Positions 3,001-62,130 of a DNA stretch of 64,000 nucleotides are shown here, piece by piece. Within the stretch, counting starts at the first letter, position 1. Each line of letters opens with the position of its first letter. This DNA comes from Owenia fusiformis (taxonomy: Eukaryota; Annelida; Polychaeta; Sabellida; Oweniidae): assembly GCA_903813345.2 (NCBI GenBank), contig CAIIXF020000005.1, positions 9,367,375-9,431,374 on the forward strand. The letters are read 5' to 3'. Made by a program: the position numbers and the translations under genes. The notes under the pieces are model-generated. The model saw only the letters and a list, made by a program, of their open reading frames with translations. It was not told the DNA's origin and searched no databases.

Positions 3001-6000
3001 CCTCTGAAGGTTCCAAACTGTGTGAGCACAGGACCGTGGGTCCTTTATTTGTATGCTGAAATCCTCGTATTACCTAGCATCTCTTGGGTTCACATCTAAA
3101 AAGATACTCTAATGGCCCTAGTAAGTCGTTCATTATTATTCCATCTAACGAAGCCATTTTTATGTGCGTTATTTTACAATTTTTGCTACAACTGCAAAAA
3201 GTGGTGGAGGGATTTTGTAAAAGTAGCAGCCATGGCTGTTCGATGGGATTTGCTACTTTCGGCATTGCTGTTGTCTTGTTTGATTATAATTCCTCTTTCA
3301 TCTTTTCTGGTCCAGGTGTATTGTCCTTGATAATCCGTGGAATAGTTTCACTACATAGTTTTGCAATGTCTTTCCCATAGTCTGCTATCACAGTGGGCTC
3401 TAATTCTAGAGATATTGCTGTGTTTCTTCCATCTGTACTGCTGGTAGGCCAAGGTGGTAGGTTAGGGCCATTTGGGTCACTGAAAAAATTGAGTTTTTAT
3501 AACTGGTGTAGTAAGTCATCGAAGGAAAATTGAATCAACATGATTATGGAAAACTAAGCCAGAGGTTGATGAAAAAATTTGATAAAATTAGGTTATGGGT
3601 AGGTTAGGGCCATTCAGGTTACTGAAAAAGTTTGAGTATTCACACAAATACCTGACTGGGTTTGTTCATATGTTAATATTATTTGTAAATTGTATTCGCC
3701 ACCCACATGAACCACAACAGAGTTTATTGTTATTTGGTCTTTGAGCTCTTATCCCATGATTTTACTAGGATATCTTATTCTGATTAAATTCTAATTATTG
3801 TGGGTCCCCTAATGCAAATATCATTTCTACTCACCCAGTTTTTGCAAAGTTGAGCCAATAGTTTACAAATAATTCTTCCATACGAAGATCCTCTTTGGTA
3901 TAAATAACATTGCTGAACATTGGCTCTTGGCTGTTGTTAGTATGGCTTGAACCATAGCAGAAGAAAATATCATCACCATGGTCTGTTTCTATATAGCTTG
4001 GCCTGAACTTCATTAGGTGACTTGGCCCTTTATTCAGCACATAAAACTTTACATCTGCGCCTATATCTGTAATTGAAATAAAGAAGACGTTATTGTTAAA
4101 ATTCATAACTTGTTAGATACCTCAGAAAAATTACTTTATTCTCAAATCATGCCATCTTTTGTAATAAATGTTATACATGATGGTTTTTAGTCTGTAAAGA
4201 TTCCATTATGAGCTCATGTCGCCATTCATTGGAAATACAATGAATAAGTTTATATTAAAGTATTATATTAAAGTTAAGTTCATTAGTCTGCTTGTTTCTT
4301 ACTGTACCTCTTAATTTGTTAGCAGTTCTTATTACTGGAGCATTAAGTGTTAAATCTCCGCAAACTCTTGCTGTTGCTTTGACCAGCTCTTCCTCTGTCG
4401 GGTCAGAAACTTGGAAGTAGTGATCAATGAGAGCTACAATGAACATGACATCACAGTGTATTTCTGATATGAGTGGTTCACAACTCATACAAGAGGCTGC
4501 CTATTTGTATGTCTATGTATAAGTGCACATAAAAGAACATAGGGCTCCTTCAAGGAGGGGTTTCTGGGTCTGTCGTGTAGGTTGATTAACACGGGTTAAA
4601 AAATTACGACCCAACATATACAGAATACATCCGTGAGGTATTGCTCACCTTCATTGGTGGTAAACAAAATACTATACAAAATAACTAAATTTCACACAGA
4701 AGAGGCTTCCTTGAAGAGTACATATCCCAATACTTCATTTTGTTGAATGAGTACTTAACAGGTATTAACCAGACCTATTGATACTGTGAGCTTGCTTGGG
4801 AGATCATGGCTAAGGCTAAGGCGCAGGCTATGCCTATTAGCAAACTGGGCGGTATACTCAACGAGGATCTTCAAATGCAATCTTAATGCAGGCTACCATT
4901 TTGCATAACACAAGGAGGGGTTAATTGTTTCCTAATAGAATATTAATATCAATGGTTCTATTATAAACTGCAACCCTCACCATAGAATAATAATATCAAT
5001 AGTACCATTATAAACTGCAATCCTCACCATAGAATAATAATATCGATACTATCATTATAAACTGCAATCCTCACCATAGAATAATAATATCAATAGTACC
5101 ATTATATACTGCAATCCTCACCATAGAATAATAATATCAATAGTACCATTATAAACCGCAATCCTCACCATAGAATAATGAAATCAATAGTACCATTATA
5201 AACTGCAATCCTCACCGTAGAATAATAATATCAATAGTACCATTATAAACTGCAATCCTCACCATCTGTTAGTCCATCATATAATGGTTTATTGTCTTCA
5301 CTTGGAGGGGCTATGTATTTATTGTATTGTATTTTGTTTACCACCAATGAAGGTGAGCCAATAGTACCATTATAAAGAGCAGTCCTCACCATCTGCTAGT
5401 CCATCATATAATGCTTTATTGTCTTCACTTGGAGGGGCTATGTCTATGGACATCACCAACACCGTCTTCATGTCATTTCTCCAGTTTTCCAGTGTCTTCT
5501 CAGCAAAAAATGTTGGCATCATTTGAGGTATGAACATGTAGCCTATGAACATATAAATGAGTCATGTTTGATCCCAATGAAAGAAATACACATAACAAAC
5601 ACACATGTTTACAAATAACATCACTATTTGATATCAAATCTACAGTTTGTTGAATGACTTAATGTTATCATTTTAGGATTTGGAGATAAAGATCTTAAAA
5701 TATGTGAGCACATTGGCCAAAAAGGAAATCTAAATTATGTTGAATAAAATACAGTTAAACATTGATTAAACATTCAGTACTCTTCTATTCAATATTTCAG
5801 CTACTGTCTAATGGCTCCCCGATCAAAGACACACTTTAAACCACATGTTCATCTCGAAAAGAACCCAAAATTTCAAGGGACATGAAAAAATACCTTCCAT
5901 ATCATTGATTCCATATATGAACTTAATCCTTTTAAGTTGTTCTTGAATTTCTTTGTCTTCAAGGAGATCATTGGGGTGTTTTGGAAAAGATGTTTCCCCA

Positions 6001-35600: not shown

Positions 35601-38600
35601 AAATAAATAAAACTAAACATACATACTTGACAGTCTGTGATGAACATTCTGATCCATGCTTTCTAGCGCAATGTTTGCAGCATGTGTCACACAAGACACC
35701 AGGCACCAATTGACAATCAGCTGATAGTACAACTGGAGGACATTCCTCTACTTTACATTGTGTGCAAGAATATGCATCCGATACTGACAGTTCAAGTAAA
35801 ACTATCAAAATCAATGAGATAAATTGGACGCATTTGCTTTGAGTTTTCATCTTGCATTTATGAGAGCTGATATAAGGTTATTGCGTTTTATTGGTTGCGT
35901 TTTATTGGATGATTAAATTGAGCTATTACAAGGACTGGGTTATTTCCTCTATATTCAGGAGTCATTTATTTCAATAATTTGTAACTGTTCAAACAGTTAA
36001 TGTTCATTGCTAATTTTGTATTTTTCTTCTTTGGGAAATTTAAACAACTGATCATTATGGTGTTTTTAGTTCGGTTAAAATATCAGTGATTTTAGACTGA
36101 CCCTCAATGTCCTCTATATAATATTGTACTTTCAGACTGACCCTCAATGTCCTCTATATAATACTGTATAAGTGGTAATTTTGCCTAATCATTTAATTTG
36201 CCTATTTCCTCATTTTTGCCAGGTTCGGAAAATTAAATGTCGGAAATATTGTCTTTATAATGTTATCCAATGGGAGGTTTCTTGTCATTAGGAAAATTAA
36301 AATTAGGAAAATGATGAAATTTGACCATTCGGAAAATTAACCACTCGGATTAAATACCACTTATACAGTATTGTACTTTCAGACTGACCCTCAATGTCCT
36401 CTATATAATATCGTACTTTCAGACTGACCCTCAATGTCCTCTATATAATATTGTACTTTCAGACTGACCCTCAATGTCCTCTATATAATATTGTACTTTC
36501 AGACTGACCCTCAATGTCCTCTATATAATATTGTACTTTCAGACTGACCCTCAATGTCCTCTATATAATATTGTACTTTCAGACTGACCCTCAATGTCCT
36601 CTATAATATTGTACTTTCAGACTGACCCTCAATGTTCTCTATATAATATTGTACTTTCAGACTGACCCTCAATGTCCTCTATATAATATTGTACTTTCAG
36701 ACTGATCCTCAGTGTCCTCTATATTATATTGTACTTTCAGACTGACCCTCAATGTCCTCTATATAATATTGTACTTTCAGACTGACCCTCAATTTCCTCT
36801 ATATAATATTGTACTTTCAGACTGACCCTCAATGTCCTCTATATTATATTGTACTTTCAGACTGACCCTCAATGTCCTCTATATTATATTGTACTTTCAG
36901 ACTGACCCTCAATGTCCTCTATATAATATTCTCTTTTCAGACTGACCCTCAATGTCCTCTATATAATATTGTACTTTCAGACTGACCCTCAATGTCCTCT
37001 ATATAATATTGTACTTTCAGACTGACCCTCAATGTCCTCTATATAATATTGTACTTTCAGACTGACCCTCAATGTCCTCTATATAATATTGTACTTTCAG
37101 ACTGACCCTCAATGTCCTCTATATTATATTGTACTTTCAGACTGACCCTCGATGTCCTCTATATTATATTGTACTTTCAGACTGACCCTCAATATCCTTT
37201 ATACCATCCTTAATGTGCATATGTCATTTCAGACTCATCCTCAATGTTCTCTATACAGTTGTCGAGACACTCAGGCACAAACATGAAAACGATTCGGAAG
37301 AAGAAGAAAAAACAAGACAGCTTTTCATCACAGAGCTTGGTTTGTTGTTCATTTCAGCTTAAATTTTCATGAACTCCAGTGTAAACAAATTAATTGTTCA
37401 TTATGAAATATTTCAAGGCATAATGTTTTGAATATTTATTACAGAAATTTATAAAAATCTTCAATGAATGAAATCGGTCATTCCAAATCTTTTAGATTCA
37501 TTAAAGTTGAAGCTAACTATTTTATTTTCCAATTCAGATGCTGCTTTTGAGCTTTTATATATTCATGTTTAAAGCCATATTTCCTAAATAAATGTGTAAA
37601 CTGTAGTATCTATGAACTTTCATAATATTTGATTGGACACGCTTGTGATTGTTTAGGTTCTGCTATGTATGAAGAGGAGACCCTGGCAGTGATCCTATGT
37701 GGAATGATAACAAAGTTCTGCAATGGAAGTGCTCCACATTTCCCCATGAAGAAAATATTGCTTCTTATCTGGAAGGTCTTGCTGGTAAGCTAGCAATGTT
37801 CCTTGAGTTATGGAAATATTTTTCTTAAACTAAGCGAAGTAAATTAGTTAAAGTTTTGTACCTGTTAAATTTTATTTTCATTTTTTAATATGATGAGCTC
37901 AAGCTCAAATGCACCGTAAGGCAGAAAGAAGTTATAATTTAGCCTCAATGCAAGAGAATATTGATGATGCAAGAGAATATTGGTGATGCAAGAGAATATT
38001 GTTCATGCAAAAGAATATTGATGATGCAAGAGAATATTGATGATGCAAGAGAATATTATGATGCAAGAGAATATTGATGATGCAAGAGAATATTATGATG
38101 CAAGAGAATATTGATGATGCAAAAGAATATTGATGATGCAAGAGAATATTGTTGATGCAAGAGAATATTATGATGCAAGAGAATATTGTACCATTGCAGG
38201 TATCTTTAGGGACACTTCAGGACTGTTATGAAAGGAAGAATAATGCAAGGGAAGCAGCTGGCCTCCCCAGATACCCAGAAAACACACTAGAAGTTAGTAT
38301 AACTCTGTTCAGATAATAATGTTAACAAATGGGTATGCAATACTTCTGTAAAATGAATAACTCCCAGGTTAAATGCTCTAATGTGTCCATTTAGATACGT
38401 TATGAGTCTTATGTTATATGAGAACTGCCAAATATGAAAATCTATGGTAAACACAATCATGACAAATTAATCAGATTCGCCATTTTCGTGAATTTGTTCT
38501 AAGATTTGATTCGGCATGCTTTAACCCATATTTTCAAGGTTTGTAAAAGTATGAGAGCAGCCTCCCCACCTGCCAGTGCTGCAGACCTCATAGAACAACA

Positions 38601-41600: not shown

Positions 41601-44600
41601 ATGCTTTCACTTATGTGTGCAAAGTAAATCCAAACAAATTAGAAAATAGAATTTTTCTGTTTTTTTCTATCTGCATAATGTTGTATTGTTTTGAACTACT
41701 TGATTATCAATCTACATGAGAATTAAGTTCTTTTATTCTGTCTCAGATTGCCTTGTTGAAGATTCTACTGGCTGCAGCTCCCACTTCTAAAGCTAAGACA
41801 GATTCCATCAACATACTAGCAGATGTTTTACCAGAAGAAATGCCGTAAGTTATGACTCACCCTCAGATATAAGTAGATTTGGCCAAAGTTCCGGTCAAGT
41901 TTCACTTTTGGCCTCTCAGCTTGGTATTTCTGACCTTGTGAGTGCAACATTGGTAGTGTGGTGTCTAGTGACCTATGCCGGATTGACGCAAATTATGCAT
42001 TTATTTTAAACCAAACTATGACCAACCCTTTTCTAGTTGAATACGAGGGTTGTCCCATAAGTCTTGATATGAATGATCCATGTTATATTTGCACTGTTTA
42101 ACTCATTCACACTTAAATCACATTGTATAAAGCTGGAAAATATTGATACCGAAGATCGTTTCAGATCTTCAATCTTGCTGTTCTCCCTTGTGGTAACTCA
42201 CTACTGTATATTATTATTCCAGTACAACAGTACTCCAGTCAATGAAGCTAGGCATAGATGTAAATAGACACAAGGAGATCATAGTCAAGTCAATATCAGG
42301 TCTCTTACTCCTCTTGCTGAAACATCTCAAAATAAACCACATATACCAGGTTAGTAATATCTTCACGTTTCAAAGGATGTGCCCTTTTGGTCCCTCAGTC
42401 AAATGTATGTGAAATATGGTTTTTATTACTGTCCTAGTTATTTTTTTTTCTGTTTCAAATATAGTTTATTCCAATTTAGGTTTTTAAGATACAGAAATAC
42501 AATGATACAATTAATTACAATAATGTATAATGAGTTATGTTTTAATCATTTTCCATTTGTTTTTAAAAAATACATTTTTACGAGTACAGATTTCAAAATT
42601 TAAAGTTTTAATAGTGCCTTCAAAATTACGCTTAATTCCATTATTCAGTTCTTGAATATATGTTTTATATATAACAAATGACACAATACTTATAAAATAG
42701 TTTAAAAATTCAGTATAATTGTCATTTCCATCGTAACCAATTATCAATTTTCTGTAAGTTACTCTTAACCCTGAGATATTATAAATATGTTTCCAAATGT
42801 TTTGAGAATATGAGCATGAAAATAACAAATGTTTCAAGGTACATAATTCATTACATAAACTACATTTGTAGGTTTCACTTTTACCAAATATATATAAATC
42901 ACTAAGGCTAGGAAGAATATTGTTGATTATTTTAAAGTTGAAATTACCTATTTTCTTTTCTTTACAACTTATTGTAGTCCTAGTTATATTTGATAAGTAT
43001 ATTTACTTTTCACGAGTTTTAATGCATAATTAACCCCCTGCTGAGAGTCAGAATAAGTATCTTAACAAAACAAAAAATAGTCATTATCATAGAAAAAAAC
43101 ACCAATGGCAACCTGTATGACATACAAAGAAGAAATAACTTAATATAATTTTTTTTCAAATTTTTGAATTTCCCGCCAGTTTAATTTGAAGGGGGAAAAA
43201 CAAGATGGTTGCCATTTGATTATCAGAAAAAAAGTTGCTTCACTTTTAGTTTTCACAAGGAGCACAGTTTTCCGGTTTAGGTTTTTTGACTGATTCTGAC
43301 TCTTCATTACCAGGGTTATGTATAGAGATTATAAAATTGAAACCAAAGTGTTGTGCTCAGCATGAATTTGACTGAAATATGTGTAACATCACCAACACAA
43401 TTGAAGTCTCAAAACTGGATGCTCAGTAACTTTGAGTGGCTATAATCCCTTGATTACCCAGATAAACACCAATTCACTTATCCAGAAATACCATTCAATG
43501 TCTATACAAAGAAAGTAACAATGTTTTTGAAGATATGTTTCAAACTTTCTGCATAAATAATTCATTTAATATTTGCCTTTAATTTTTTTTTCAATTCTGA
43601 CAAAGTGACATGCACTGTCTTTGATGCCAATATTCTTCATCAATTGTGATACAAATTGATATTTTTGTAATCTCAGAAGAAGGATAAGATATTGAAGTTC
43701 AATAATATGTGTGATTGAGTTGGTTTTTCAGACATTACAATTTTCAATATTTTCTAAGTCGATACCCAGACTCATTCCCAGACTCATCCTTTACTTTGAA
43801 TGTCTTAAATAACTTCAAGTAACTTCAAATGGACATAAGAGTAAGGTAAGGCAGGTTCACTTTTAAGTAAATAGATATATAGATCTCCAATAGAAGTACA
43901 TACCAGTATTTAGTAAATATATTTTCTAATGGTGTTAAGGCTTTGAATGTTGTTTATATATTTCCAGTTTGAGTTTCTCAGTCAACATCTGGTATTTGCC
44001 AACTGCATACCTCTTGTGCTGAAGTTCTTCAACCAGAACATCAGCTCCTACATATCAGCTAAAAATGTGTAAGTATTGAGTATATCAGCTCCTACATATC
44101 AGCTAAAATGAGTAAGTATTGAGTACATCAGCACCTTCATATCAGCTAAAAATGAGTAAGTATTGAGTACATCAGCTCCTTCATATCAGCTAAAAATGTG
44201 TAAGTATTGAGTACATCAGCTCCTTCATATCAGCTAATATGTGTAAGTATTGAATACATCAGTACCTTCATATCAGCTAAAATGTGTAAGTATTGAGTAC
44301 ATCAGCTCCTTCATGACAGCTAAAAATGTGTAAGTATTGAGTACATCAGCTCCTTCATATCAGGTAAAAATGTGTAAGTATTGAGTACATCAGCACCTTC
44401 ATATCAGCTAAAAATGTGTAAGTATTGAGTACATCAGCACCTTTATATCAGCTAAAAATGTGTAAGTATTGAGTACATCAGCACCTTCATATCAGCTAAT
44501 ATGTGTAAGTATTGAATACATCAGTACCTTCATATCAGCTAAAATGTGTAAGTATTGAGTACATCAGCTCCTTCATAACAGCTAAAATGTGTAAGTATTG

Positions 44601-45049
44601 AGTACATCAGCTCCTTCATATCAGCTAAGTGTTGAGTACAATCTCTGATATCAACCATGTGACTGTTTATTGTTCATTGGATATTCATACTTCTTGTAAA
44701 GATGTGTCGAACAAAAAATGCATCGATTTTAACATAGTTTAATCATTTTCACCACTAACTGGAAAACTTAACAAGTTTGGCAGTAAAGAAAGAGTTAAGA
44801 AAGGATTGGTATCGATGTGGTGAACTGAATTCAACAATGTGAATGTATTTCTCTTAAAGCAATTATTGAAAGCATTCTGTAAAAACACGGTCATTTATGT
44901 AATGTTGACTGATTGGTTGATCTCACAAAAAATATTCAAAAAAATTAATACAAAAACCCCCAAAATAGATAAAAATTAAGATAAACATTTTTATGTCCCC
45001 ACCACATAGTGTGGGGCCATATTGTCGGCCTAGGCGCGTCCGTCCGTCC

Positions 45050-45080
<31 letters not shown>

Positions 45081-48000
45081 CGTCCGTACGTCCGGCAGTT
45101 TTCTCCTAAACCGCTACAGATATCACCTTCAAATTTTCAGGGATAACTTATGAGTGCATACAGATGTGGACGAAAAAGTTTCAACTCGATACCTACTTCC
45201 TGTCGGCCATTTTGAAGTCAAATGCTAAAATCCTTGTCTGCAAACTTTAAGAAAAATGGCTTCACTGTTGCTTTTAAAACTTTAACATCCTGTTCAATTC
45301 ACTTGATTCTAGATCTGATTAGGTTTTGGACCTGTTAGCCCAGTCATGGCAGCCATTTTGAATGTTTTAAGAAAAGTTAGCGTGCGATAATACTTTGTAT
45401 CATATTGAATGGTGTTTTTGAGTTTTCATACTTAGACTATTTAGTAGCTTTATAAAAAATTTCAGGTGTACTTTATTGTAAAAGCCTATGTTATTGTTAA
45501 CAGTAGTTATATGTGCTAATTTTGTAAAAAGAAATCAGCAAAAACTTATAATCACTTTTTTATTGTCGGCCATTTTGGATTTTTCCATCCTAAAATCTTG
45601 TCTGTTAAGTCTTGTCTATGCGTTTTCAGGCGAACCATTTGGTAGATCATTTCCAAATTTTCAGGGATGTTTCTTAGTATGAAAATCTAGATCTGATTAG
45701 TTTTTTGGCATTCTGGGTAAATGTCAAGGCAGCCATTTTGGATTTTCCGTCCTAAAATCTTGTCTGTGAAGTCTTGTCTATGCATTTCCAGGTGAAGCGT
45801 TTGGTAGATCAATTTCAAATTTTCAGGGATGATTCTTAGTATGAAAATCTAGATCTTCTAAGTTTTTTGGCATTCTGGATAAATGTTAAGGCAGCCATTA
45901 TGGATTTTCCGTCCTAAAATCTTGTCTGTAAAGTCTTGTCTACGCGTTTTCAGGTGAACCATTTGGTAGATCAATTAAAAATTTTCAGGGATGATTCTTA
46001 GTATGAAAATCTAGATCTGATTAGTTTTTTGGCATTCTGGGTAAATATCAAGGCAGCCATTTTGGATTTTCCGTCCTAAAATCTTGTCTGTAAAGTCTTG
46101 TCTACGCATTTTCAGGTGAAGGGTTTGGTAGATCAATTTCAAATTTTTAGGGATGATTCTTAGTATGAAAATCTAGATCTGATTAGTTTTTTGGCATTCT
46201 GGGTAAATGTCAAGGCAGCCATTTTGGATTTTCCGTGATAAAATCTTGCCTGTAAAGTCTTGTCTACGTGTTTTCAGGTGAACTGTTTGGTAGATCAATT
46301 TCAAATTTATAGGGATGATTCTTAGTGTGAAAATCTAGAACTGACTAATTTTTTGGGCATTCTTGGTAAATTTTAAGGTGGCCATTTTGCATTTTCCGTT
46401 CCAAAATTGTAGCAGTAAAGTCTTGTCTACTCATTTTCAGGATAACCATTAGATGGGATCACCCATTGGTGGGGACATATTGTACACGTTTGTGTTCTTG
46501 TATTTCATTAACAAGATCAACCAAACTTTCCTTTGTACAATTACAATATTGAGAGACCTAAACATTTATGTTTATGTCATTTTATGTCAATGAGGTTCGG
46601 ATAGATGTTTTATTTCATTCCGAAAATATGATACCAAGAACAAAAGAAGTGTCTGATGTGTAGAGAAAAGTATATATATTTACTCCAAATTATATTGCTC
46701 CAGTCTCTTTATCATTATAATGTTAATTGATTGATTCTCTTTGTAGAATTTCTGCATTGGATTTCCCCAATTGTGTAATAGGTCCACAACCTGAACTGAC
46801 AGCTGAGAACCTGGTGAGATTGTATTTCTATGTCTATGTCGATAATCTGCAAAAGGCTAATAAGCCCATATAAAGCAGATATATAATTTAACAGTGATAG
46901 AATTTGAATAGAATATAATTTAAAACCTTAACATTTAAAAATAGATCTATGGTTTACAACTCATTTTAAAATTTAAACTAAAGGAACATTCCTGGTTGGC
47001 CCCTGTACCCCCCTAGGAAGTCCATTAATGTTGAAATACCCTGGGGCGACTGTCAGGCTACCGCGTTGACATCACCCCTCTTTACCAGTAGTGCAGGCTT
47101 GTTGCTGTGCACTGGGGACCTTTAACATTAAAACATAGATCTATATATCAAATTAAAAATCTTAACGACTATTTTGAATTAGACTGTTAATTAGACTAGC
47201 TTGGGGACCTCTAATTACTAGATTTTTGTAAAATAAATAACAGGAAATTGGAATCAAGACTGCATTCAACTTAAGAAATGCAAAAATACGAAGACACTGT
47301 ACTAGTTGGGAAACATTTCACCCAGATTCCATAGACTATAAATACATGCCCAATTTAAATCTTACAACATTATTATCCCATACCCTAGACTGAATTATGG
47401 ACAATTATGCAGTAACATGTATTCATCTGGATCTATCTTTTTAACCAATAGCACAAAGCTGAATTTGACTGTTCTTATGTAATATAATATGTTATTCTTT
47501 GTTGTAATATGTAAATTTTATAATGAATGTTTTTCTCAACAGGAGGCTGGTGATAATCAGCAGTTTTGTTGGCGGAATCTCTTCTCCTGCATAAATCTCC
47601 TCCGTATTCTCAACAAGCTTACAAAGTGGAAGCACTCACGAACAATGGTATGACTTCCATTACTATTTTTAAATACAAGAATTACAAGATTACAACGCCA
47701 TATTTTGACATTGTTTTATGCAGGCAGGCTTTGTAAAATGTTAAGCAAATGAGTGTTTGATCTTTCCTGAGTGTGATTGCTCCAGATATTCCTGTTAGAT
47801 TATTTTGCTCAGTAATGCTTGTTTGACATGTACATTCAATTGGAAAACATTGAAATTAATCTTGAAATAAAATCGAAATAAAAAAATTAATCTTGAAATG
47901 ACAAAAAATCTTAACTGCATGTTCTTATTTAAAATTCCTATTTTCCTATTCCAGATGCTTGTAGTATTTAAATCTGCCCCAATATTAAAGAGGGCACTGA

Positions 48001-56000: not shown

Positions 56001-59000
56001 GACTGGTGGAAGAAAGTAGGGAAAGACAACCTCCTCATTCTAAAGACTGAGCTCTATTCAAAAGACCTTCAGGGTAGCATTGATACAATATTGGAATTTC
56101 TAGCTCTAGAAAAACTCAATCAGTTTTCAACTGATGTCAATAGAAATATCTTAGAGCAGGCAAATAGAAATGTACAAAACAGGAAGACCAAGAAGGAACT
56201 GAGGGAAATGCATACAAAGACGAAGACAATGTTAGAAGAGTTCTATAAGGACTATAACCAGGAACTGAAGAACATGTTGGGTAGCACTTACGACTGGGGC
56301 TACTAATCCAAAACCACTAAATGTCATTGACCAGGATAACTATCATTTGATCAATATAATTTTATTGAATTCAATATAATTTCCTAAATTGTTAAATAGT
56401 ATACAGATATATGTCATTGTTAAAATAACATTGAGGCATCGTTTTTCGTAAAAAAGTAATCTTTAATAATTGAATTACCAGTGAACAGATTCGGTCCAAA
56501 TTTTAGATGCTGATGCCTAGAGACACAGTGGCTCTGTTTGAGAAAAATTCAAGATGGCGACTGAATTTCAAAATGGCCAGCATTTTTCGTCAAAATGTAA
56601 TCTTTGAAAACCCAAATAACAGTGAACGGATTTGGTTCAAATTTGATATGCTGATGCCTAGGGACACAGTAGCTATTTTCAAAAAGGAATTTTCAAATTG
56701 GGGCTGAATTTCAAAATGGCTGCCTTTTTTCGAAAAATTGTAACCTTTGACAACTCAAATACCAGTGAACAGAAATTGAGATTATGTTATAGCACACGCT
56801 CAAGGGAATAGATTGTACGTTATACAGACACCAAATACATCTCTGATGATAGAAGAATGAAAAGGCCTTAGGGTCAAAACCTCCCTTGTTTCCATTTTCA
56901 AAAAAGTGAAAAATGAGAAAAGTTATCATAACTTTTTTATAACTCTAATTCACGCGGTAAAAACTTCGACCATTAATTTGAATTTTTGACCGAATAGATG
57001 TTTAAAAATCAAGAATCGATTGCGAGTCTCATACTGAACTATTTTTCTTCACACTTGTTCCATACAAAGCATAGCAAAAACGCCTTTCCTTTGGTACATT
57101 ATTCTGTTATACAGAGTCCCTACTCCGAGTGGCATTTTGGTCTCATGCTATGAGAAGGGCTTCTAACAGCTTGGGACCAAAACGCTGCTAAAACGAGGGA
57201 CTCTTTACAATAAAGCAATGTACCGACAGAAAGGCAATTTTTTAGCTTGGAATGGAACAAGTTTGAAGAAAAACGGCGCAGTATGAGACTCGCAATCCTT
57301 GATTTTCAAACGTCTGGTAGGTCAAAAATCAAATTAACGGTCGAAGTTAGTACCGCGTGTAATAATCGAAATCGATTTCATATTTCGGCGACGGATATTT
57401 GAGACCTACACGATCCGAGCATGCCAGTGCGATTTGTTATATACCTCCAATCAAACGAATTCAATTGTTTAAAAAAGTCGATGCTAGTGCACATGGGAAT
57501 AGGTCGTCTCATGATTAAACCCATTCCGTATTAACACGTGGACTTGTATCGCCACACGAATTTGATGTGAAACACACCAAATTAACACATATGACTTCTG
57601 AAATGTATCATTTATGCCAAACATTACTAAAAATCATAGAGGGCAATAATAGTTGAATTTGATTTACATCGTCCAATTTAGAAAATTCAATATTTTTCTT
57701 CTTTTTACTTCTAGATATAAAATGCCATGGCTTGTCTTTATAACTGACCAATATGTCATTGTGATGACATTAATGAGTCAATAAAACATATATATTTACC
57801 AGCATCATTTATATTAGCCATCTGTTCAATTATTTTGCTGACCTATCCAGCAAAGATGGGACTAAGTTTGAATAATTTTCCCCACAAAAGTCACTGGTGA
57901 TCCACTCGATTATACTGGTTACAGAAACGGTTCGTTCAAGAAGAAAGGAAGTAGTGCGCTCTCCATTATGATCTCCCCATGAAAACAATTTGTTCATCTG
58001 ATTTTTCAAACCAGGAAGTATTTTTGTGTTTGTCAAAATCCATTTGCATCCTACACATCCCTACATCTTATCCAAATATGTTATTAATTAATGAAACATA
58101 ACAGTATAATCTTTGGATTTACAGGGTTGTATGGCATTTCATAAGTGTAAAAGTTGCTTTTGAAGCATTTTTCTATAGCCATTTTGTAGGAAAAAATGAT
58201 GAAAAATGTATATCTTTTTATTTTGAAATATGACGTAAATCGATTGCAAACTTCATATTTGCACATCTGATGTGATATACCATTTATATCATATTGTGAA
58301 GTTATTTAATTTGCAATCGATTCAGGTCATAGTGTATTTTAGGTATTTTTGTGAAAATCAATAGAAACCAATGGCCTCCATTGGAATCTGATGATATCCA
58401 CATGTTAAGTCAATGGAGCACATCCAATGTCAAGTCAATACACCCTTGCTGAACTTAATGACCTCAACCTCAGCTCAAATGCTTAATATTTTCATAAGTA
58501 TTGTGTGACATTGTATTCTTTATGTTACACCTAAAAATGAATCATTTTGTTCTTCGGGAAATCAAAGTGGAGAGAGCACTAGATCCTTTTCAATGTGGCT
58601 GCTATTTATCAAAACATTTTTTTTGTTCAGTGGGATTTGCTACTCCGTGGAATTGCTATTTTCTTGTCGAAAATTGAAAAAGTTAAATCATTTAAAACAT
58701 ATTCCTATTTTATTTATTTTTACTTCACAAAAGATTATTTCTTAAAAATATTGAGTGTACATTTGCATACTTCTCGTACATGTAACTACGCTATTGGGTT
58801 TGATTGCTTCTGAAAATATCTCAAGCTTCTGTGAATTCAAACAATTTTAGTATTGTACACATCAAACAAAATACAAACAAAAGCTAGGTTGAGAGATTGA
58901 GAAAATATATGTTCGGAATACCTAGTCTATTAGATAAAGTCCTACCTGAGCAGGTGATTTTTCATATTTTCTTGCAATAGCCTGTATAGTAGAGTCATTG

Positions 59001-62000
59001 AATATTGAAGGTCCTTCAGTTTCACCATTTCTAAAGAAAGTAGATTTTCCATTTATTAAAAATATTTCAAAAAGTAAGTTCTATAGGTGTTCAGGAATTA
59101 TGCATTAAATTAAAAAGTTATGACATTATTATCTTCATTTCCTGAACACCCTGTATCGCTATATCTAAACACTGTTCTGTCGGCGTCATGAATACACTAA
59201 CCTCCATTTGAATCCGCCCAGGGGTGAGTAGGCCATAACTGTTATATCATGAGACTTGCAGAAAGCAACCAGTTTAGAGTTGGAAAGATATGGGTGCACT
59301 TCAATCTTTAAAAAAATAACAGAGCAATGTTTTATGATTAGTGATCTATTAATCGATCTGATATGTAGTTCAGAGTGGGGGTATGCCCATTCTGATTTAT
59401 CAGAGCCACTCTGATACTTTGCATTCCAAGGAATAGTAAAGACTGTGAATGTCTAGTTGACAGAATTTTGATACAATAGGATATTTCTTTATCTTTTTTG
59501 TGGCATTAAAGTCACTTTTTCATCAGTGGAATCTGAACGGAATCCGATCAGTATGTCGTTCAGACCATTTCAGATCTACATCATCATACCTGTCTACACA
59601 CTTCCATCTTCAAACTATTCAACTTAAAGTAACCAAGTAACATTTTGAATTCCAGAATCACAATGTTTTTCCATGGATACATCTCATTTCGCCTACTTGT
59701 AAATTGACTGGCTTAATTCTACAGGTATCTAGAATTCTCTGTATCTGCTTGCTATTATAGTTGGACAGTCCAATGTACTTTGTCAATCCAAGGTCAACGC
59801 ACGATTCCATTCCCTGATTAAAATTGAAGATAATGAGGCATGACATGAAGTAATTAAACGAAATGTTATATTTCACAATGACACCTCATTACGATTACGT
59901 AGGAATGCTATCAGTAGCATCAAGTTGTTGTATCGTGTTGTATTGTATTGTATTGTATTGTATTTTACTGTATTTTATTGTATTGTATTGTATTGTATTG
60001 TATTGTAATGTATTGTGGTATGGTATGGTATCGCATCGCATCGTATCGTGTTGCATTGTATTCTTTATTGCCCCTATAGATATTTTGTTAAAAAATAAAG
60101 TTTAACATAAGAATTCAATTTACAACTAATGTACTTTGTAGGTTTGTAAATGTGTGTGAGTGAGAGATGGGAGTACATAAGGGCTTGATGAAGGATGGTT
60201 CAAGAGCTGTAACCAGCACAGAATTCATTATATCTACACAGGCCCAAGGAAATATAATTGCCTTCAGGAACCTGAACCTGAACCTGAGTCCAGATAAAAA
60301 GTTAGCCCATCAATGTCAAATCTCCTAAATCATGTAAGTTTCAGCAGATAATATGTTGGAAAAATAACAGTGAAACCTGCATATCCGAACACTTCTCTAA
60401 TCTGAACACCTCTCTAATCTGAACACCTCTTAGTGTGAGTACATTTTCTCAGTCCCAATGTTGTTATCTCCCATAGACTCACATATCTCTAATCTGAACA
60501 CCTCTCTAATCTGAACACCTCTTAGTGTGAGCACATTTTCTCAGTCCCAATGTTGTTATCTCCCATAGACTCACATATTATATCAAGCGAACCTAGAAAT
60601 GTGAACACCTGGTTATCTGAACATGTTTGGCTGGTCCAAGAGGCGTTTGATGAGATTTTACTGTACATACCTTCCAGGTGTCCAGGTAGTCTATACTTGC
60701 ATACTGGAACTTTCCAACCTCATCCTTTGGAAATTGGTTAGGTCCTGATTGGAAGGCAGTTGGCCAATGAATAAGGAAGAGGTCAACATAATCCAACCCC
60801 AGTTCTTGTAAGCTGCTTCTTAAAGATGGCACCACATCATCTGTCCCATGGGCATTTCTCCATAACTATAAAGATCATAATGGGCTCAGGTGTAATACCC
60901 TTATCAATAATATGATCATGCCCCATGATGAGGTGAGGATATTCTTCTTTTTTATTTTATTGAAACATAATAACATTTGTATATTTGTGGCCGTGACACC
61001 TACTTGGGTACATAATTGAACTTTAAAATCATTAATCTAAAATCCTTGAGTGCTTTTTCTAATTTTTATTATTTTATGTTATACAATTAAATCAGATGCA
61101 CTATTATCAAAAACAAATTTGAACTGAAACGAAATGTTGAAAAATATGATAGCATTGAGTTTTATTGCAATAACTGTCCAATTTAGGATCACTTGATTGT
61201 TATTATTCGAAAACTAATCACTCAAAATCTGACTCCTGGACAAGGTAAATCAATTTATGATAACCTACCTTAGTTGTCACAAAAATATCTTCTCTTTTAA
61301 CATCACCAGATTCAATTTTGTCCCTGATGCCTTTTCCCACCCCAGGTTCTGAGCGATATATCTGGGCAGTATCAAAGTGTCTGTAGCCAAGGTCAATAGC
61401 ATCTCGTACTAACTGAGCAACTTGTGCATTATCTGGCTGAAATGAACTAAGAAAATGTACTGAAGCTTTCCCTATGGTATGCCTCAGAGTAATGTGTTGT
61501 ATGGATTGTTATGTACATTGCAGTATATCAAAACTTCTCTATAATTAATTTTTGTGGATTTTAAGAATGGACTTAGCGTTTTTTACTGCTTCTAGGGCCA
61601 ACTTCAATATTTTGGACATTAAAAGTACATATTTACACTTTCTCATGCACTTAAAGGCACTCCCAAGTTTATGCCTTTATGTATTTCATATTGAGCACTC
61701 ACACCTCTATGTTTTCCATCAGAGTACCAAGGGCCACTGTTGGCTTCTTAATTAAAGCCTTTATGTATTTCATATTGAGCACTCATACCTTTATGTTTTC
61801 CATCAGAGTACCAAGGGCCACTGTTGGCTTCTTAATTAAAGCCTTTATGTATTTCATATTGAGCACTCATACCTTTATGTTTTCCATCAGAGTACCAAGG
61901 GCCACTGTTGGCTTCTTAATTAAAGCCTTTATGTATTTCATATTGAGCACTCATACCTTTATGTTTTCCATCAGAGTACCAAGGGCCACTGTTGGCTTCT

Positions 62001-62130
62001 TAATTAAAGCCTTTATGTATTTCATATTGAGCACTCATACCTTTATGTTTTCCATCAGAGTACCAAGGGCCACTGTTGGCATCTTAAAGCCACTCTCAGT
62101 TGTTGTCCAGGCAATGTCCACATCAGCCAT
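50098..62130 (-). CDS. Aldo-keto reductase (8 exons, 320 residues, complete)
   Basis: NADPH-dependent oxidoreductase of the aldo-keto reductase superfamily (AKR1-like), reducing aldehydes or ketones in the cytosol. Exons in transcript order: 62130-62041, 61436-61269, 60865-60671, 59813-59697, 59305-59202, 59030-58946, 50543-50383, 50140-50098. All phases match and the frame totals 321 codons. The catalytic tetrad is visible: Asp 52 and Tyr 57 in GYRHFDTAQIYRSE, Lys 86 in IFVTTK, His 119 in FLIHWP. Cofactor-binding features are IGLSNYN and VAVCPKSSKKHRIAEN. The C-terminus (DHPFYPFHENF) comes from a 43-nt last exon; without it the frame would end at a TAA overlapping the GTAAGA donor after exon 7. 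The 8.4 kb sixth intron contains the sulfotransferase on the other strand. Exon 1 has been copied in an 84-bp tandem array with its donor. Physiological substrate is not deducible. Confidence 0.93.
50900..51290 (-). mobile_element. GC-rich SINE-like element with tRNA-like 5' end
   Basis: A GC-rich island within AT-rich DNA. On the minus strand a tRNA-like stretch (GTGGAGTAGAGAGACTAC..CCCGCGTTCGAGCCCC, with a B-box-like GTTCGAGC) is followed by about 250 bp of unrelated body. In the large AKR intron. The class assignment is tentative. Confidence 0.4.
51724..52046 (+). repeat. Arm 1 of a 323-bp inverted repeat pair
   Basis: Runs from GATCAAATTGGGTCGTG to TTGTCAGGCTATTCCGG. The sequence recurs in reverse at 54194-54515, and its last part recurs directly at 54610-54690. 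It contains a small hairpin (ACAACGGTATCTGACTTTACCGTTGT region). Confidence 0.85.
52962..53663. mobile_element. Non-autonomous DNA element with about 50-bp inverted ends
   Basis: GACATTA..TAGAGAGATTTCGCA with AATACAACTTATACGTATAC at the left, mirrored at 53608-53663 (TATAAGTTGTATTTTACGT..GCGAAATCTCTCTAATGTC). No transposase inside. The superfamily is unclear. Confidence 0.7.
54024..54095. mobile_element. Fragment of the same CAGGCCC MITE family
   Basis: Contains GGAATTTTTGAAAGGGGGTT, then AACCCAAGTTGGCTACGGGC. Only one half is present. Confidence 0.55.
54194..54515 (-). repeat. Arm 2 of the inverted repeat pair
   Basis: Reverse-complement copy of 51724-52046, with scattered substitutions and small indels. 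The spacer between arms is 2.1 kb. Confidence 0.85.
54610..54690 (+). repeat. Third partial copy of the same repeat
   Basis: Matches the end of arm 1 (TTGAAGCGACGGTTATGTCC through GCTATTCCGG). It lies about 150 bp before the sulfotransferase ATG. Confidence 0.8.
54837..56306 (+). CDS. CHST15-like carbohydrate sulfotransferase, single exon, nested in an AKR intron
   Basis: A 489-residue type II Golgi membrane protein transferring sulfate from PAPS to a glycan. A short cytoplasmic N-terminus is followed by one transmembrane segment at about residues 20-36 (NVLIGMSILLFIYL), a stem, then the catalytic domain. The 5'-phosphosulfate loop is FYIIGPPKCATTDLSWRL (about 186-204). The 3'-phosphate motif is ITILRDPISRLYSDFFFWG (about 304-322). 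The phrase RCLPYFYIIGPPKCATTDL closely resembles N-acetylgalactosamine 4-sulfate 6-O-sulfotransferase (CHST15), so a chondroitin-type acceptor is likely but unproven. Start is at the first of two adjacent ATGs; ATGs at codons 9 and 18 are alternatives. No introns in the coding region, which could mean a retrocopy origin. A repeat fragment (54610-54690) sits about 150 bp upstream. Confidence 0.85.
   Translation: MMSYYRIWMKLKFSRLSMSTNVLIGMSILLFIYLKMELNTKSRVDSNINNLSSITHSTQSQFKESIQFTELREFFGLSYDEYSDVELKGLLEDHLRFDEAVAKTGNLFAIEPVTFLKHLQNPCWIGFLDESSLDGGQHGDCSLPLIKKNDKTVCETQLAIQKRLSSTWQSRIQQNKPWRLRCLPYFYIIGPPKCATTDLSWRLTRHPRIEDAGVKEYHYWSKARWDFNNTESVGRTKLLKPYVDSFDQVAERIRNFSTSQGINNVVAHDGTPHTIYHHHGPVGQSHLKLDVDYIQHIQKDKVKFITILRDPISRLYSDFFFWGNAGRFGPVKVKDHFHELCEKAINLYKDCLKQRPLKYCVYHQANNVGLGKQNMFRITLGIYHVIIQDWWKKVGKDNLLILKTELYSKDLQGSIDTILEFLALEKLNQFSTDVNRNILEQANRNVQNRKTKKELREMHTKTKTMLEEFYKDYNQELKNMLGSTYDWGY
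56951..57360. repeat. Fold-back (near-palindromic) element
   Basis: About 200-bp inverted arms: CACGCGGTAAAAACTTCGAC at the left, matched by its imperfect reverse complement ending TACCGCGTGT at 57360, with matching inner blocks such as GCGAGTCTCATACTG and GTACATT. The centre is around 57165. No coding. Confidence 0.85.
58227..58335. repeat. Inverted repeat hairpin
   Basis: TATGACGTAAATCGATTGCAAA and its complement TTTGCAATCGATTCAGGTCATA enclose about 55 bp. In the large AKR intron. Confidence 0.6.
59936..60040 (+). repeat. (TATTG)n microsatellite
   Basis: Interrupted runs of GTATT with variant ATGGT and CGCAT units. In the AKR intron just upstream of exon 4. Confidence 0.9.
60370..60655. 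repeat. Tandem-duplicated CAGTGAAACCTGC element
   Basis: Two copies of about 110 bp keyed by TCTGAACACCTCTTAGTGTG and CCCATAGACTCACATAT. In the AKR intron just after exon 3. Confidence 0.7.
61673..62092 (-). repeat. 84-bp tandem array copying AKR exon 1 end and its donor (5 units)
   Basis: Units start at 61673, 61757, 61841, 61925 and 62009. On the minus strand each reads CCAACAGTGGCCCTTGGTAC..GAAAACATAAAG then GTATGAGTG. The unit at 62009-62092 is the real exon 1 3' end and donor. Two units differ at only a few bases, so the expansion is recent. The period is a multiple of three. Confidence 0.95.

Follow-up and report, generated by a model that had tools for sequence, protein, structure and literature searches.

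Results

A splice-junction minisatellite in STRIP

The window, a stretch of 64,000 nucleotides (64 kb) from the annelid Owenia fusiformis, carries on its forward strand the STRIP gene, in which a tandem array with a 40-bp unit lies in intron 6. Upstream of the true exon 7 lie 23 near-identical copies, each composed of ~20 nt of the intron 6 end and ~20 nt of the exon 7 start, such that the unit straddles the boundary between intron 6 and exon 7 and includes sequence from each. Tandem Repeats Finder (TRF) places the array at 36090–36168 (2.0 copies) and 36362–37203 (21.1 copies, 96% matches), and a fuzzy scan for the exon-start motif recovers 23 copies from 36096 to 37181, plus the copy that opens the true exon at 37233; the two methods agree with the minisatellite of about 23 copies of an acceptor and exon start that had been predicted at this position. 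The first two copies occupy 36096–36163 (plus strand), the second being cut by an inserted element, while the other 21, followed by the intron tail that leads into exon 7, lie in 36369–37232 (plus strand). Successive exon-start motifs are spaced 40 nt apart, except for one 38-nt step and the interrupted copy 2.

The unit closely resembles the junction beside which it lies. Aligned to the true junction it scores 44, a value reached by none of 2000 shuffles (maximum, 26), and the best score elsewhere in the window, taken in 50-base steps over the remainder, is 29; the check for unit-exon similarity attached to the original prediction thus found that similarity present. Each unit had also been described as TTTCAG followed by the first codons of exon 7, and the acceptor and exon start are indeed there, though the first copy reads TTTTAG before the exon start. 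The AG is kept in all 23 copies and the 14 nt directly before the exon start are identical in 20 of them, in line with the identical pyrimidine tracts originally noted for most decoys. A genome search with three 40-bp units matched a single place, the STRIP locus (the search skips very common words and covers one assembly), which suggests that the unit arose from the local sequence. A dispersed repeat as the origin of the unit was rejected on the same search, which, very common words being skipped, returned no second place.

The interruption of the array is due to a MITE-like element of 205 bp (36164–36368, plus strand), which has terminal inverted repeats CTGTATAAGTGGTA/TACCACTTATACAG and a TA target duplication, lies inside the second repeat unit and splits the array in two. 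Of the 730 first-look candidates in the genome 40 were scored, and 39 places other than this one match the element at 96–100% identity. The insertion appears recent because these other copies are so similar. Together these observations point to an array that is older than the insertion, the insertion itself being recent. Tandem arrays are error-prone in assembly and an assembler may inflate or collapse their copy number. Private substitutions in some of the copies, a single copy of 38 nt, the inserted element and the recurrence of junction arrays at many separate loci (see below) all make an assembly artefact very improbable.

The true acceptor of exon 7 and its decoys

The true exon 7 (37233–37339, plus strand; 107 nt) begins with a 24th, diverged exon-start copy. 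When joined, exons 6, 7 and 8 align without gaps to human STRIP1 (7k36_I; E = 1.7e-33), which fixes the start of exon 7 at 37233. The true exon thus sits at the 3’ edge of the array and, as judged from sequence and homology, would yield an intact protein, while the array copies would yield none. Upstream of its acceptor are ~50 nt free of AG, and this stretch includes three branch-point-like motifs, at distances of 48, 32 and 20 nt from the exon.

Acceptors were scored with a position matrix for which 18 myosin stretches of the same genome supplied 123 predicted acceptors. The true exon 7 acceptor scores 9.2, at the 40th percentile of this set, compared with 12.1 (73rd percentile) for 20 of the decoys, 11.9 and 10.1 for one each, and 6.7 for the first copy. 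Twenty-two of the 23 decoys therefore outscore the true site, and across intron 6 as a whole 26 of 142 AGs equal or exceed the score of the true acceptor, of which 22 belong to the array and 4 do not. Each unit further contains a CTGAC, located 36 nt upstream of the exon start that follows. From all 23 decoy acceptors a stop is reached after 14–35 codons. The claim that exon 7 must be chosen over 23 upstream decoys holds in that every unit has an acceptor and all but one of these score above the true site; local strength alone would be predicted to favour the decoys and would not account for the choice of the true site.

It had also been suggested that the units, with the reading LTLNVLYII, preserve an ancestral exon start. 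This was rejected on comparison with human STRIP1 (BLOSUM62), to which the present exon is closer than the unit over the 8 homologous exon residues (30 vs 27) and over 12 residues (41 vs 32). The unit is ahead only in a window of 10 residues (33 vs 32), and past LY its reading enters intron-tail sequence. Three differences separate unit and exon in the homologous 23 nt, two of them silent and the third encoding Thr in the unit and Ile in the exon, where human STRIP1 has Leu.

Other arrays in the window

A second STRIP array is of the donor type. The end of the exon at 43968–44068 (plus strand; donor GT at 44069) seeds a 44-bp array (44038–44628, plus strand; 13.6 copies by TRF) in which the exon end and donor, GTAAGTATT, are repeated, and from 12 of 12 decoy donors TAA follows at once. 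As read by eye, the next exon begins at 46747 and is in frame with this one. On the minus strand, a 47-bp array (4935–5265; 7 copies by TRF) repeats a donor-like GTGAGG region. A probable carboxylesterase exon has its donor at 5389, and the array starts ~125 nt downstream of this donor; the exon end and donor occur a second time in the intervening stretch. A Pfam search returned no match for that exon itself; carboxylesterase exons flank it on both sides. A 19-bp array (37948–38188, plus strand; 12.8 copies) ends 11 nt before the acceptor of STRIP exon 9 (exon start at 38200 by eye), which it abuts and does not clearly contain.

Two further kinds of array were observed. An 84-bp array at 61673–62087 (99% matches) lies within a 171-codon open frame and holds TTTTCCATCAG, and no supported gene was found in that stretch. 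Dispersed 135–162-bp arrays with GCCATTTT- or GCCATCTT-like motifs occur in the window at 45569–46450 and 56442–56773, as well as in the sampled loci L007, L018, L026 and L030, and probably belong to a family of mobile elements.

Junction arrays across myosin and dynein loci

The frequency of junction arrays was compared with chance in 277 kb of the same genome, chosen before repeats were looked at. The sample comprised 18 myosin stretches (127.7 kb) covering most myosin places (C9 5.79–5.82 Mb is among those left out) and 18 dynein stretches (149.3 kb), one for each dynein place found. Exons were called by paralogue comparison, giving ~694 exon edges from 347 exons, 25 of which were deduced from family-profile gaps and given random positions. 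With a period of at least 15 and at least 3 copies, 44 arrays were retained, four of which, long dispersed satellites, were counted as junction-free without inspection. A splice junction is contained in 11 of the 44 (myosin, 7 of 19; dynein, 4 of 25), as judged by eye after the data had been seen, a procedure that biases the count upward; four more arrays lie 8–22 nt from a junction. Both acceptor and donor types occur in these unrelated genes, and junction arrays are found at ~1.6% of the sampled splice sites (11 of 694).

The original prediction had taken the several arrays of the window to suggest a process that duplicates exon-intron junctions, and replication/transcription conflict or repair at junctions could underlie such a process in this genome. 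Several junction arrays in one window, and four more sampled arrays close to a junction, are in keeping with this explanation, as is the count itself when set against random segments matched in unit length: 11 of 44 compares with 5.2 expected (P = 0.008), or with 5.96 once segments that fall within exons are left out (P = 0.023), and a formula version of the test gives 6.25 (P = 0.031). The excess is more pronounced once the dispersed satellites are removed (11 of 40 vs 4.08 or 4.85 expected; P = 0.001, 0.0046) or periods are limited to 130 (10 of 38 vs 3.48 or 4.14; P = 0.0013, 0.005), and is also seen in the myosin stretches taken by themselves (7 of 19 vs 3.08 or 3.48; P = 0.018, 0.036). 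For the full set of arrays, the ratio of observed to expected counts is 1.4 to 2.1, and it reaches 2.9 in the subsets.

Against this explanation, the junction calls were made by eye with the data in view, and the excess shrinks under several changes to the sample. For dynein alone, 4 of 25 compares with 2.08 or 2.51 expected (P = 0.14, 0.23). Removal of L015 leaves 8 of 41 vs 5.23 (P = 0.13), removal of L027 leaves 9 of 42 vs 5.88 (P = 0.11) and removal of both leaves 6 of 39 vs 4.86 (P = 0.35), while 30% more exon edges would raise the expectation for the full set to 7.8 (P = 0.13). An automatic count, which was restricted to myosin and misses edges inside arrays, finds 3 of 19 vs 2.31 (P = 0.41; P = 0.51 and 0.70 at lower copy thresholds). 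Junction arrays are common in the sampled loci, and their excess over chance is possible and not established. The presence of arrays at or beside junctions, as originally described for the window, is therefore upheld, and the specific process is suggested at most: with 11 of 44 arrays against 5.2–7.8 expected, and a result that is unstable when single loci are dropped, we regard a preference for junctions as unlikely.

Other duplications were also observed in the sampled families. On the minus strand at C9:37986009–37994334 (G000), beside a muscle-type myosin gene, a single myosin-head exon (profile positions ~18–84) is matched 12 times in tandem, which probably reflects a cluster of mutually exclusive exons. 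Three diverged copies of one dynein AAA exon, at ~2062, 3228 and 6568 of L022, fall in one gene region and are possibly alternative exons or the outcome of whole-exon duplication. A doubled dynein exon segment of 140 bp at 533–815 of L024 (sense orientation) may be an early stage of a junction array.

Intactness of the decoy splice sites

Among 107 decoy copies in 14 junction arrays, the 11 sampled and 3 from the window, none has a broken splice dinucleotide, compared with 6.1 expected from random column pairs in the same units (P = 0.010, post hoc). Of 51 other AG/GT pairs in these units, 11 have at least one broken copy, as opposed to 0 of 14 splice sites. The test was conceived after the data had been seen, on arrays that had been recognised by their consensus splice site and of which three came from the initial window. 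As it stands, the result speaks against purging of the decoys and is not what pure neutrality predicts; the decoys may be kept.

Intact decoys would suit a regulatory device in which the acceptors divert STRIP pre-mRNA to truncated, degraded transcripts and the length of the array tunes output. Such a device is further favoured by the likeness of the unit to a complete acceptor, with its CTGAC and TTTCAG, by the higher scores of nearly all decoys and by the early stop that follows every one of them. The same architecture is found on unrelated genes, however, and the true acceptor is unexceptional, several AGs of intron 6 outside the array scoring as high or higher; similar arrays in amphioxus are moreover reported, in the available text of that study, to leave splicing undisturbed (PMC3087553). 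We consider a regulatory role of this kind improbable. There is a comparably slim chance that junction minisatellites are a genome-wide feature of this annelid lineage, with decoy sites that stay intact because they are used, whether as backups or to set dosage by draining transcripts into poison isoforms, and with copy numbers that vary between individuals.

Discussion

The STRIP array, as characterised from its sequence, is a splice-junction minisatellite of the kind known as ‘mirages’, minisatellite-like duplications of intron-exon boundaries described, in the available text of the report, from the amphioxus globin genes BflGb6 and BflGb9 and from Adh3 (PMC3087553). The amphioxus mirages are unstable in length, at Adh3 (from earlier work) even somatically, their splicing is apparently normal, as RT-PCR suggests, and they have been proposed as a route of intron gain (PMC3087553). 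Like the STRIP array they are repeats of acceptor or donor boundaries in which many copies keep AG/GT, the true exon lies at the array edge and the inner copies are homogenised, and the 40-bp unit of STRIP falls within the 10–72 bp of the Adh3 mirage units (PMC3087553). The two differ in copy number, 23 in STRIP as opposed to 6 and 3 in two BflGb6 haplotypes, and in host, an annelid rather than amphioxus (PMC3087553). The assembly itself fits an annelid and disfavours amphioxus: it has 3 hits to the annelid haemoglobin linker family PF16915 (best E = 5.0e-7), and a search for the GFP family, of which lancelets have many genes, gave no hit, a result that does not prove absence. COX1 likewise gave no hit in the assembly.

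Related arrangements have been described elsewhere in chordates. In the lancelet PGBD5 gene, 60-bp and 108-bp repeats lie over splice sites, in a report whose available text also cites mirages of troponin C; unlike the STRIP array, the PGBD5 repeats are imperfect, number 2–7 copies depending on the assembly and belong to a chordate (PMC3902484). Human segmental duplications contain internal tandem repeats at exon-intron boundaries, with units of 30 bp on average and 4 copies (PMC2812944). As minisatellites at exon-intron boundaries that alter gene structure, these resemble the STRIP array, whereas they occur in recent primate paralogues and are interpreted, in the available text, as new introns and a source of alternative splicing; STRIP is a conserved single gene (PMC2812944).

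The most plausible account of the STRIP array, and one we hold with some confidence, is that it is a mirage-type minisatellite that arose by a tolerated local tandem duplication and was then expanded. A short tandem duplication would by chance have spanned the intron 6/exon 7 boundary, and it would have been tolerated because the copy next to the exon body still makes a normal transcript, the other copies becoming intron. Unequal exchange or slippage may then have expanded and homogenised the duplication to 23 extra copies. The true acceptor would be used mainly through exon definition, in combination with its own ~50-nt AG-free stretch; exon definition, by favouring the 107-nt exon, is the likely reason for the use of the true site. 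Any transcripts that start exon 7 at a decoy acceptor would presumably be removed by nonsense-mediated decay.

Among the titles and abstract openings listed for an open-access library, none indicates splice-junction minisatellites in an annelid. What is new here is the annelid host, Owenia fusiformis, together with a frequency of junction arrays that is measured against chance, and the finding suggests that amphioxus is not peculiar in having splice-junction minisatellites. The STRIP array itself constitutes a natural experiment in acceptor choice, in which 22 higher-scoring acceptors in near-identical context lie upstream of a weaker true one. A genome rich in junction arrays would, further, allow a test of intron gain by junction duplication, the route put forward in the available text of the amphioxus study (PMC3087553).
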